NCBI RefSeq assembly: GCF_026005215.1
Contig: NZ_BPMA01000021.1
Location: 110,801-174,800, forward strand
Length of the DNA stretch: 64,000 nt
From: Capnocytophaga catalasegens
GTDB taxonomy: Bacteria; Bacteroidota; Bacteroidia; Flavobacteriales; Flavobacteriaceae
Direction of reading: 5' to 3'
Shown piece by piece: positions 2,771-57,996 of the stretch (position 1 is the stretch's first letter; the number at the start of each line of letters is the position of its first letter). Both the position numbers and the translations under genes were made by a program. The notes beneath the pieces were generated by a model, which saw nothing but the letters and a program-made list of their open reading frames with translations, did not search any database and was not told the origin of the DNA.

Positions 2771-2950
2771 ACTTTTTTTATAAAACTACCTAATATAAAT
2801 TATTTTTTATCACAAACTATCTATTTAATAGATTTATATATACACATATCAATTAAATATATTATAAAATAATTTTTAACATATAACCTCCTTGACTTGT
2901 TTATTATAAAAATATTTATTTTATGTAAAAAATATATCTTTTAATATAAA

Positions 2951-3220
2951 AATGAAAGAATTTTTAATCTCCGTAACTTGATGGAAAAGAAAAATGAAAT
3001 CATTTTTAATCTCCGTAACTTGACGGAAAAGAAAAATGAAAGCATTTTTAATCTCCGTAACTTGACGGAAAAGAAAAATAAAATCATTTTTAATCTCTGC
3101 AAACTGACGGAAAAGAAGAATAAAATCATTTTTAATCTCCGTAACCTGACAGAAAAGAAAAATGAAATCATTTTTAATCTCCGTAACTTGACGGAAAAGA
3201 AAAATGAAAGCATTTTTAAT
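2951..3220. repeat. 42-bp tandem repeat array 1 (6.4 units)
   Basis: Units begin at 2951, 2993, 3035, 3077, 3119 and 3161, with a partial unit at 3203. Each has two dyads: AAATGA-aa-TCATTT (or a G variant; centre 2998.5 in the first good copy) and CCGT-aacttg-ACGG (centre 3019.5). The centres are exactly 21 bp apart, so dyads recur about every two helical turns. The unit also reads as 14 codons on both strands (plus-strand motif NLRNLTEKKN). It ends about 190 bp before the next gene. The fourth unit is the most diverged. Confidence 0.95.
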
Positions 3221-3358
3221 ATTTTCAATTATTAAAACAATAAAAATAACTATATATTTATATATATAGGATATAAGATACTAATTTACAATTTGTAATA
3301 TTACAAAAATAAATTATTTTTTTTTACATAAAATTTTTTTTTATTAAAAAAATAATTA

Positions 3359-3366
3359 TATCTTTG
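3359..3366 (+). promoter_or_regulatory. Promoter -7 box (TATCTTTG) for the first DUF6261-like operon
   Basis: TATCTTTG fits the Bacteroidota TAnnTTTG consensus and lies 47 nt before the ATG at 3413. No clear TTG box is seen upstream. The string TATCTTTGTCCCATAAA recurs exactly at the second locus (57249-57265). Confidence 0.7.
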
Positions 3367-3412
3367 TCCCATAAACTAAAAATAAATCAAAGTTAAATTA
3401 AAATTAGTTATT

Positions 3413-4120
3413 ATGAAAGCAGGATTAACAAAACTATCTACCAAAGAATTAGCAACACTTGCCGAACAAGTTATCAATGCTACTAAACAATCAAATGTAA
3501 ATGAAGCTAAAAAGCATTCGTTTTTATCTCAATTAGAAACTTCTTATGAAGAATATACTCCAGTACTATTTAAAACAACATATAGTGGTAAAGGAAAAAG
3601 TGTAGCTCAAGCAGATAAAGAAAGAGATACTTATTTACGTAGTTTTAAACTTATTTTAGAAGGTTATGCTAAACTTAAATCAATTACAAACTATGCTGAT
3701 GCAGATAGTTTATATAATATACTAAAAGTACACGGTCTTAATTATGATAAACTATCATACTCTGAACAAACAGCACAGCTTAATAAATTAATAGAAGTAT
3801 TGGAAATAGCAGAGAATACAGCCAAATTAGAAAAATTTCATTTAATAGAAATTTTTGATTTGATTAAAAGTGCACAAGAAAATTTTAAATCTATTTATGA
3901 TGAACAAGCACTTGCTAATGCTGAACTTAGAAAAATAAAACCTGCATCTGTATTACGTAAAGATTTAGAGAAAAATCTAAAACGTTTCTTAGATTATGTT
4001 ACACTTATGATTGATACTCCTTCTTGGAAGCCTCTTTATAATCAGCTTAATGAATATGTAAAAGCAAGTAAAAAACCTAATATAGCAAAAGAAGATAAAT
4101 CAGATATAACAATATCTTAA
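3413..4120 (+). CDS. DUF6261-like protein, copy 1
   Basis: A 235-residue soluble, mostly helical protein with no signal peptide or membrane segment; its function is unknown. It is a clear paralogue of the gene at 57289-57996: same length, a nearly identical core (YSGKGKSVAQADKERD), LSYSEQTAQLNKLI, and a C-terminal helix region with SVLRKDLEK. Its size, helical character and multi-copy habit resemble the Bacteroidota family DUF6261; that name is from memory. It opens a run of close same-strand genes (DUF3137, LemA, asnA, lpxD). The 42-bp array and TATCTTTG box lie upstream. Codon use is much more AT-rich than in the second copy. Confidence 0.8.
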   Translation: MKAGLTKLSTKELATLAEQVINATKQSNVNEAKKHSFLSQLETSYEEYTPVLFKTTYSGKGKSVAQADKERDTYLRSFKLILEGYAKLKSITNYADADSLYNILKVHGLNYDKLSYSEQTAQLNKLIEVLEIAENTAKLEKFHLIEIFDLIKSAQENFKSIYDEQALANAELRKIKPASVLRKDLEKNLKRFLDYVTLMIDTPSWKPLYNQLNEYVKASKKPNIAKEDKSDITIS

Positions 4121-37217: not shown

Positions 37218-37704
37218 GTCAAACGCACGAAAATTATGAAGGAATGTCATTATGTAGTGTAACTATAAAATTTTAAAACTAAGTTTTTTGATAATTTTTT
37301 AAGCCCAAATACATCTGTATAGAATTTTCTAATCAAAAAATTTATTTAAAACATATATGTAGGAAACTTTTTTTATCAAAAAATATCTCAAACACATTTG
37401 TAAAAGATTTTCCAATTGTTGGAAAATACAAAACATTCGTGCAAGAAACTTTTTTATCCAAAAAATATCTCAAACATGTTTGCAAAGGGTTTCCAATGAT
37501 TGAAAAATGTAAAACATTCATGTAGGAAACTTTTTTATCCAAAAAATATCTCAAACACGTTTGTAAAAGGTTTTCCAATGATTGGAAAATGAAAAACATT
37601 CGTACAGAAAACTTTTTTTGTAAAAATTTGAGCAAAACAAATTGAAATTAGGTCAAAGACACGAAAATTTTGGAGAAATATCAAAATATTTTCGTGCGTT
37701 TGAC
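37218..37704. repeat. Element with 17-bp terminal inverted repeats
   Basis: GTCAAACGCACGAAAAT at 37218-37234 is repeated exactly, in inverse orientation, at 37688-37704. A third copy with two changes (GTCAAAGACACGAAAAT) lies at 37652-37668 in the left orientation and forms a hairpin with the right end. At 487 bp, without a coding gene, it looks like a non-autonomous MITE-like element or a fixed regulatory structure. No target-site duplication is obvious. Confidence 0.6.
37358..37612. repeat. 81-82-bp tandem repeat array (about 3.2 units)
   Basis: The segment GGAAACTTTTTTATC recurs with its final AAAC ending at 37367, 37449, 37530 and 37612, giving steps of 82, 81 and 82 bp. Each unit also has AAATATCTCAAACAYGTTTG and a near-palindrome TTTTCCAATGATTGGAAAA. 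The array sits inside the inverted-repeat element. Confidence 0.9.
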
Positions 37705-56930: not shown

Positions 56931-57098
56931 TCAATATTGATTTTTTATAAAAATACTATTCATATAATATTTTCAACAGTGAAGTTATTAAATACACTAT
57001 GCATTCATATAAATTCAATATTGAAGTTATTAAAAAAATAAATATTTCAAATAAACTCAGTATTGATTTTATTATAAATATCTATTTTTTAAATAAAA
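56931..57098. repeat. 42-bp tandem repeat array 2 (four degenerate units)
   Basis: Units begin exactly 42 bp apart at 56931, 56973, 57015 and 57057, headed by TCAATATTGA, TCAACAGTGA, TCAATATTGA and TCAGTATTGA; the perfect form is a 10-bp palindrome. The heads are followed by TTTTTTATAAA or AGTTATTAAA-like segments, and the second halves are only loosely alike. A weak fifth unit may start at 57099. It ends about 190 bp before the gene, as array 1 does, but with different sequence. Confidence 0.8.
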
Positions 57099-57226
57099 TC
57101 ATTTTATTTTTATAGTAAAATACACATATTACACATAATTATCTACTATATTTCATAAAAAAACATATTTATAAATATCTATTTATACTATTTTTTATAT
57201 ATAAAATAAAAAAATTAAAAAAAAAT

Positions 57227-57256
57227 TTGTTTGTATAAAAAAAATATGTATCTTTG
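57227..57256 (+). promoter_or_regulatory. Promoter of DUF6261-like copy 2
   Basis: TTG, a 19-bp spacer and TATCTTTG (57249-57256). The stretch TATCTTTGTCCCATAAA is identical to that before copy 1. The -7 box lies 33 nt before the ATG. Confidence 0.8.
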
Positions 57257-57288
57257 TCCCATAAATTTTAAAAACGATATATAATATT

Positions 57289-57996
57289 ATGAATTTAGGA
57301 TTACGAAAACTAAGCACGAGAGATTTGGCAACACTTGCAGAGCGAGTAATCACGGCTACAAAACAATCTGATGTAAAAGAAGCTAAAAAACATGTTTTCT
57401 TAGAACATTTGGAGAAAGCATACAAAGAATATAGCGCTGTTCTTTCTAAAACCACATATAGCGGTAAGGGAAAAAGTGTAGCACAGGCAGATAAGGAACG
57501 TGATGTTGCCTTTTCGTCTATGAAATCATTTTTGACTGGATACGTAAAACTTCCTTCTGCTCCATTTCACGAAGAAGCCTTAGCACTTAACGAAATATTT
57601 AAAACATATGGAGTTAATATAAGTAGACTTAGTTACTCAGAACAAACGGCACAGCTTAATAAACTTATTGATATATTAGATACACCTGAGCATCTTGAAA
57701 AGATGCAAAAACTATCACTTGAAACGGCTTTTAACGAAATAAAAACCACCAATGATAATTTTAAATCTATCATAGATGAGCAAGCTCAGGCAAATTCTGA
57801 ACTTAGAGAAACACAAAGTGCCTCTGTTCTTAGAAAAGACTTAGAGAAAGCACTCAAACGTTATTTAGATTTGGTTACACTTATGTTCGATATGGAAGGT
57901 TGGAAAACTCTTTACAATAAGTTCAACGAGTTTGTAAAAGCAACCAAAAAACCTACCAATTCGAAAAAAGAGACTTCAATAAAAGAAAATTCATGA
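57289..57996 (+). CDS. DUF6261-like protein, copy 2
   Basis: A 235-residue paralogue of the gene at 3413-4120, equal in length, with the strongest identity in LSTRDLATLAERVITATKQS, YSGKGKSVAQADKERD and LSYSEQTAQLNKLI, and a more variable centre (about residues 75-110). No signal peptide or membrane helix; helical throughout. Function unknown. Codon use is less AT-rich than in copy 1. Unlike copy 1 it is closed by its own terminator (58017-58052), so it is monocistronic; a lipoprotein gene follows. The family name is tentative. Confidence 0.8.
   Translation: MNLGLRKLSTRDLATLAERVITATKQSDVKEAKKHVFLEHLEKAYKEYSAVLSKTTYSGKGKSVAQADKERDVAFSSMKSFLTGYVKLPSAPFHEEALALNEIFKTYGVNISRLSYSEQTAQLNKLIDILDTPEHLEKMQKLSLETAFNEIKTTNDNFKSIIDEQAQANSELRETQSASVLRKDLEKALKRYLDLVTLMFDMEGWKTLYNKFNEFVKATKKPTNSKKETSIKENS

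Follow-up and report, generated by a model that had tools for sequence, protein, structure and literature searches.

The window, i.e. the whole stretch of 64,000 nucleotides that was analysed, raises the question why two paralogous genes of the DUF6261 family each stand behind a tandem array of the same period when these arrays have no unit in common. We give about even odds (a probability of roughly 0.5) to the answer that such arrays are helically phased DNA sites bound by the protein encoded next to them, in the manner of iterons but with unrelated proteins. The two loci consist of the following elements:

2948..3220, forward strand: 42-bp array with the unit AAAAATGAAATCATTTTTAATCTCCGTAACTTGACGGAAAAG, 5' of the first DUF6261 gene (TRF; 6.5 copies, 91% match)
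3359..3375, forward strand: promoter core TATCTTTGTCCCATAAA of the first locus, in the interval from array to gene (exact copy)
3413..4120, forward strand: DUF6261 gene, 235 aa (PF19775, 68.5 bits against a cut-off of 27)
56955..57140 (about), forward strand: weak 42-bp array 5' of the second DUF6261 gene (autocorrelation; TRF core 57004-57101)
57249..57265, forward strand: promoter core TATCTTTGTCCCATAAA of the second locus, in the interval from array to gene (exact copy)
57289..57996, forward strand: DUF6261 gene, 235 aa, product predicted to be all helical (PF19775, 90.2 bits; AlphaFold2)

The sequence-only reading of this DNA had described 235-residue DUF6261-like paralogues behind 42-bp arrays that end about 190 bp upstream and agree in period and place but not in sequence, and all of this holds. 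Both proteins exceed the Pfam cut-off and are 60% identical across 230 residues; the distance from array end to ATG is 192 bp at the first and 187 bp at the second locus, and a lag of 41-43 is significant at both (p<=0.0005, 2000 dinucleotide shuffles). The second array is weak, with 2-4 copies (TRF core: period 42, 2.3 copies, 78% match), and the two upstream regions agree best over a segment of 46 bp close to the promoter, with no common array unit. The promoter core, claimed as common to the pair, is exact in both but is not specific for these genes, being an ordinary Bacteroidota element: its motif TAnnTTTG, which we take to be the general -7 element of this phylum, is found at most 130 bp from the ATG in 47 of 106 DUF6261 genes (9.9 expected). 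The efp-linked module of the window is also found in G016 in the same place and with the same period, its proteins being 63% identical and its arrays weakly matching. The module is thus known from G000 and G016; in the other 17 genomes examined the 1.5 kb that follow efp contain no DUF6261 gene.

This arrangement is typical of the whole family. The genome that contains the window (a 2.9 Mb draft of 100 contigs) has 29 DUF6261 genes above the Pfam cut-off, spread over many contigs, and in the 1 kb upstream of 20 of them TRF detects a period of 41-43 with a different unit each time; across loci the arrays comprise about 2 to 11.5 copies. Autocorrelation of the 650 bp upstream, with the best lag taken among 25-65, places this lag at 41-43 for 98 of 119 testable genes from Flavobacteriales and more distant Bacteroidota (orthologues included, hence not all independent). 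Of 193 control regions, taken 5' of long ORFs in the same genome, 23 show such a lag. Of the 119 regions 103 beat dinucleotide shuffles at p<0.05. The first 105 loci differ from the controls with a Fisher p of 5e-37, and against shuffles 92 of them are significant at 0.05 and 86 at 0.01. Of these loci 28 are from the own genome (of 29 genes), 59 from five other genomes of the genus (of 60 retrieved) and 18 from other families and orders; the best lag is 41, 42 or 43 in 25/28, 47/59 and 17/18, respectively. The loci of the five relatives were drawn from the DUF6261 matches listed, mostly the stronger ones (16 of 20 in G003, 11 of 13 in G011, 9 of 9 in G016, 21 of 25 in G009 and 3 of 16 in G008); left out were L117 (a duplicate of L107), L042 and L176 (upstream region ends at a contig end) and L118 (no start found). 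Fifteen extra genes came from eight same-genus genomes (G004, G005, G006, G008, G010, G017, G018, G019), and among the 14 testable ones (L106 is too short) nine have the best lag at 41-43 and 11 reach p<0.05. The linkage extends to the Weeksellaceae, and the loci include Epilithonimonas, Chryseobacterium, Riemerella and a plasmid of Prevotella nigrescens; another homologue (L114) is found in a Capnocytophaga MAG. The number of DUF6261 genes varies from 0 to 29 among 20 same-genus genomes.

Several trivial origins of the arrays can be dismissed. Chance and AT-richness are ruled out by the shuffles and the 193 control regions. The arrays are not coding repeats, since 41 and 43 are periods not divisible by three; a single 42-bp match (C12:97530) looks coding. 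They are not CRISPR arrays either, the strong ones being contiguous copies with, for example, 91-95% match across the whole unit.

A significant lag of 41-43 is absent upstream of 16 of the 119 genes, including both genes of G004. Such copies had been named in advance as evidence against the linkage, and they do exist, yet the two in the window's own genome have their array behind at least one other gene. Three own genes lack a best lag of 41-43, namely L015, L020 and L039; L020 is nevertheless significant against shuffles, and it is L015 and L039 whose array lies farther upstream with at least one gene in between. N runs are found within or beside two arrays (contigs C16:102217 and C18:124835) and two DUF6261 loci lie near contig ends (C2, C23), so that draft assemblies may under-count these loci.

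Two plasmid records carry DUF6261. On the Prevotella nigrescens plasmid NZ_CP082843.1 (L108) a 41-bp array with the dyad TGCCGAAGTTCGGCA occupies positions 2119-2301 directly before the DUF6261 gene, whose annotated start (2234) falls within the array and is probably set too far upstream. A second repeat of this plasmid (1584-1979, period 120 bp, 3.3 copies, 98% match) is located upstream of the 41-bp array and underlies an annotated “hypothetical protein”. No viral contig relative of the window's DUF6261 subfamily was found; of two short faecal records labelled as phage (labels unverified) one has a weak 41/83 lag and the other no array.

The geometry is kept while the sequence diverges. Among reciprocal-best pairs with at least 80% protein identity the arrays are alignable in 22 of 22 cases, and among those below 75% identity 30 of 38 pairs have no array match at E<=1e-4 and the remaining eight only a short weak one; in 20 of these 30 unalignable pairs both partners still have their best lag at 41-43. 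On a protein tree of 65 members below 75% identity, with arrays mostly unalignable among them, 21 changes of the exact period (41, 42 or 43) are counted, compared with 26.4 +/- 1.9 after shuffling of the labels (p=0.01); this speaks, if modestly, for a period tied to the lineage of the protein. Lag peaks of DUF6261 loci lie at 41-43 and 82-86, with none at 21 or 63. The sequence-only reading had proposed that spacing conserved without sequence reflects a structural role on DNA, and this is strongly supported by the 98 of 119 loci, in which a period near 42 recurs with units that differ as it had predicted, by the unalignable pairs and by the period of a second protein family. Its suggestion that the arrays serve as recombination substrate for the shuffling of gene copies is not supported, as it does not fit units that are different at each locus.

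The second family, NCBIfam NF052641 (“PQLLE”), was reached via arrays that have no DUF6261 neighbour. Upstream arrays occur at 24 of 24 testable PQLLE genes with periods at multiples of 21 bp, or rather nearer 20.5 in four cases (lags of 21, 42, 63 and 84 in 20 genes; 41, 62 and 82 in four orthologues); the sample consisted of 27 genes taken from the 61 matches listed, L230, L233 and L249 being too short. Among distant homologues from other Bacteroidota seven of nine testable loci show PQLLE-like lags, in a sample of 10 of the 12 matches listed outside the own genome, with L295 too short and L301 and L296 weak. Below the NCBIfam cut-off are L294, L295, L296, L299, L300 and L301; three of the seven agreeing loci belong here, including the gene fragment L299. 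Two of the seven are from one genome and have 69% G+C at those loci. Of the same-genus genomes, 12 of the 13 that have DUF6261 also contain PQLLE genes above cut-off, and none of the six that lack it does (Fisher p=2.6e-4); the copy numbers of both families correlate (Spearman 0.94 across 20 genomes, 0.86 across the 14 with DUF6261), figures that ignore shared descent. G008 has eight PQLLE genes above cut-off and G007, which is devoid of DUF6261, a PQLLE fragment below it. A third, unnamed family of proteins of about 230 aa is represented in the own genome by L302 (C65:34118-34807), with relatives L304-L313; one member scanned has no Pfam or NCBIfam name above cut-off. Lags near multiples of 21 are found upstream of 7 of its 10 testable genes (12 matches, L303 and L311 too short), and its genes in G001 and G012, genomes free of both DUF6261 and PQLLE, have no arrays. 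Homology among the three families was considered and dropped, as hhalign comparisons are not significant. In terms of the double helix 21 bp correspond to two turns and 42 bp to four, and each family adheres to its own step.

Arrays are also found without a gene. A scan of 863,554 bases of the own genome at lags 30-60 yielded 30 repeats, 28 of them with a period of 41-44; 12 such repeats lie up to 900 bp from a DUF6261 domain match on its upstream side and serve 12 of the 13 DUF6261 genes in this portion, one of them (L039) across another gene. With lags from 15 upwards the same scan yields noncoding periods of 21 (six), 41-44 (24) and 16 (one). Noncoding 41-44 arrays are absent from 80 kb of G014 (no DUF6261 gene), 197.5 kb of G017 and 200 kb of G010 (one gene each). 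In G003, with 20 DUF6261 genes, 200 kb away from the listed genes contain neither a gene-less 41-43 nor a noncoding 41-44 array, so that trans sites do not occur consistently and no genome-wide enrichment in DUF6261-rich genomes is claimed.

Gene-less arrays are intergenic, many of them between housekeeping genes, in convergent, divergent and tandem arrangements. Arrays scattered apart from the family had been regarded as an argument against the linkage; they exist, yet six of 14 can be assigned to a particular gene-linked array in the own genome, with scores above those of permuted controls. Taken together, these two conditions named in advance give a mixed picture that leans towards the linkage. 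These pairs are C12_57959 with L034, C12_172094 with L014, C16_102217 with L022, C18_9690 and window 37361 both with L031, and C32_3091 with the window's own L041, C32_3091 having originally been found by its similarity to the L041 array. The other eight have no clear gene-linked match in the own genome. The window contains one member of the matched group:

37361..37618, no strand assigned: array of period 81 (2 x 41) without DUF6261 gene (TRF)

It carries the palindrome TTTTCCAATGATTGGAAAA, lies between divergent genes for glutamine synthetase III and an UvrA-like protein, and scores 43.6 bits in BLAST with the L031 array, where permuted nulls reach at most 34.3, and 69.8 bits with C18_9690. 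That the matched arrays are remnants with a decayed DUF6261 gene was rejected, since tblastn of their flanks gave just two short hits of chance level at E<=0.05 (E 0.005 at window 37361 and E 0.023 at C12:172094). A gene-less 21-bp array (C18:35409) matches two PQLLE arrays. Apart from these, about eight near-identical 21-bp repeats TGATTGAGCTTTTAGCTTCGA lie between two glycosidase-like genes at C16:61999-62293 (L074), with no known array-linked gene beside them, and a perfect 22-bp repeat array AGAAGAAACTACAACGACGCTA is found at 1849-2081 of L211 (G017:C1:300001-320000); this genome has a single gene each of DUF6261 and PQLLE.

The proteins themselves reveal little about their role. The AlphaFold2 model of DUF6261 (pLDDT 84, pTM 0.53, 11 sequences) predicts ten helices and no strand, i.e. 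helical bundles without recognisable DNA-binding domain. Fold searches with it returned generic helical bundles only, so that no function follows from structure, and a PDB sequence search gave nothing specific. In Pfam the window proteins match DUF6261 and one sub-threshold DUF only, and neither they nor one PQLLE protein match PADLOC anti-phage models at E<=1. Profile self-comparison indicates a clear internal duplication in PQLLE (96.6% probability, E 5e-10); the signal is weaker in DUF6261 (26%, E 7e-4), and the third family shows no such signal. With a median pI of 9.0 the DUF6261 proteins are basic, those of PQLLE not notably so (7.7).

Arrays are linked to genes, their period is specific for the family and outlives the sequence, and cognate-like arrays occur in trans. 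From these observations we infer that the encoded protein binds its array, that binding is cooperative and that distant arrays may be bridged. A DUF6261 module would comprise a protein with a duplicated helical domain and a private upstream array of DNA sites, most likely occupied cooperatively with one complex per 42 bp. As this step equals four helical turns, all bound complexes would come to lie on the same side of the helix, and selection would keep the spacing fixed, as neighbouring complexes can bind cooperatively only when they are in helical register. The unit sequence may drift together with the protein while repeat turnover keeps units within an array alike, so that dozens of paralogues could maintain separate addresses. 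PQLLE and the third family would follow the same scheme with a step of 21 bp (two turns). The same protein would also occupy the matching arrays at other places in the genome; as these are found between genes of all orientations, they may serve bridging or local organisation rather than promoter control. Helically phased cooperative binding by the encoded protein would be expected to leave just this combination of a fixed, family-specific period of whole turns and a free sequence.

Cooperative binding to DNA has to be weighed against a role of the array as RNA, e.g. as repeated antitoxin or regulatory RNA for the downstream protein as in type III toxin–antitoxin systems, which we regard as quite improbable. 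Short tandem repeats directly upstream of one gene with units private to each locus would suit it, and DUF6261 units have hairpin potential: dyads are enriched (13 of 54 at p<0.05, Fisher 2e-8 versus shuffles), albeit not present in every unit, and the arrays fold better than column-permuted ones. Both strands behave alike in this respect, however (z-scores, p=0.3), and PQLLE arrays have no excess structure, although their raw fold energy differs between strands (p=0.036), which would speak for RNA. Two dyads per unit were considered as a general rule, which was dropped because only four of 54 arrays are significant for dyads 21 bp apart; it holds in L016, L037, L162 and the window array 2948-3220, where an axis scan places the two centres 21 bp apart. 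Where a promoter element is seen, it stands between array and gene (TAnnTTTG in this interval at 30 of 78 loci, 8.0 expected), and neither window locus has a terminator-like site there; the second has one after the upstream porin gene, before the array. A comparison with Rfam matched tRNAs only and no family at the arrays. An RNA would moreover offer no reason for steps of 21 and 42, and the modelled protein is all helical. Dyad enrichment without strand bias together with an element that follows the array favours a role as DNA, and the evidence also favours a two-fold element in many 42-bp units, with the 21-bp arrays being plain direct repeats.

Also on the DNA level other explanations have to be considered. 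The arrays might be selfish or neutral satellite DNA, by-products of the spread or replication of the gene modules, with gene-less arrays as scars of lost modules. This is unlikely but agrees with the volatile copy number (0 to 29 genes among 20 same-genus genomes), with the presence of the efp-linked module in G000 and G016 and the lack of a DUF6261 gene in the 1.5 kb behind efp in the remaining 17, and with those gene-less arrays that match specific gene-linked ones. Slippage, however, favours neither one helical period nor family-specific multiples, the period outlasts the sequence in diverged pairs, and beside the matched gene-less arrays there are only the two chance-level hits mentioned above. 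Whole helical turns with free unit sequence could likewise be explained by phasing of a general DNA-bending host protein, as the sequence-only reading had suggested, or of intrinsic bends upstream of the promoter, the encoded protein having a different job. A common host factor leaves family-specific multiples and a period that follows the protein tree unexplained, and gene-less arrays occur between convergent genes as well, so this explanation seems to us as improbable as that by RNA. The least probable alternative, and a very unlikely one, is a contingency locus in which repeat number tunes or switches gene expression; the wide range of copies between loci (about 2 to 11.5) would be in line with it, but it needs neither a constant nor a family-specific period.

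If cooperative binding in helical register is correct, the implications reach beyond this locus. Conserved DNA geometry without conserved sequence, fixed by family across a phylum, would surprise most specialists, and it gives a first functional handle on DUF6261 and PQLLE, both families of unknown function. Provided that each protein reads its array, about 29 natural and presumably orthogonal protein–array pairs would coexist in one genome as material for studies of DNA specificity and repeat co-evolution. The arrays suggest an undescribed layer of chromosome organisation. In its widest form this would be a modular chromosome-addressing system of Bacteroidota, in which dozens of paralogues from at least three families (at least two with duplicated helical domains) would each bind a private satellite in strict helical register (two or four turns) and link it with cognate arrays at other sites, the satellites co-evolving with their proteins like fast-evolving centromere satellites; so far-reaching a scheme is put forward as a tentative idea against which the odds still stand. 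No description of the array–gene pattern was found in the open-access literature, as judged by titles and the beginnings of abstracts; the pattern itself points to an undescribed kind of protein–DNA pairing.

Among known systems iterons come closest in design. Iterons lie at plasmid replication origins and adjoin the rep gene, and Rep initiators are built from winged-helix domains, i.e. helices with beta wings. According to PMC4980987 iterons of theta plasmids measure 17-22 bp, and separation of two iterons by half a turn abolishes the cooperativity of Rep (citing Bowers 2007). The two systems have in common direct repeats of whole helical turns beside a gene, a sequence private to the module and a diverse protein family. 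DUF6261 modules differ in their location on many contigs, with up to 29 paralogues per genome, in the 42-bp step and in a predicted structure without winged-helix domain, and no replication function is known for them. Type III toxins have a beta-rich endoribonuclease fold. In the loci of ToxIN, CptIN and TenpIN, as presented in PMC8860590, a promoter lies ahead of the repeats and a terminator behind them. Both there and here short tandem repeats stand immediately before one gene, with a unit specific to the locus. In DUF6261 loci, by contrast, the promoter element follows the array where one is seen, the window has no terminator-like site at that position, the modelled protein is all helical with no endoribonuclease predicted, and gene-less copies exist in trans. 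In centromere modules of the ParR/parC type tandem direct repeats in helical register are bound by the protein of the adjoining gene, which couples them to a filament ATPase (ParM). DUF6261 modules resemble them in having tandem direct repeats at helical period beside a gene, whose product would be the binding protein, but are present in many copies per genome. The TAACTGA heptamers of Beggiatoaceae and a few Bacteroidetes are likewise intergenic direct repeats upstream of genes, as outlined in PMC4679880. In contrast with this one fixed sequence of seven bases, the arrays presented here are free in sequence, fixed in period and tied to protein families.
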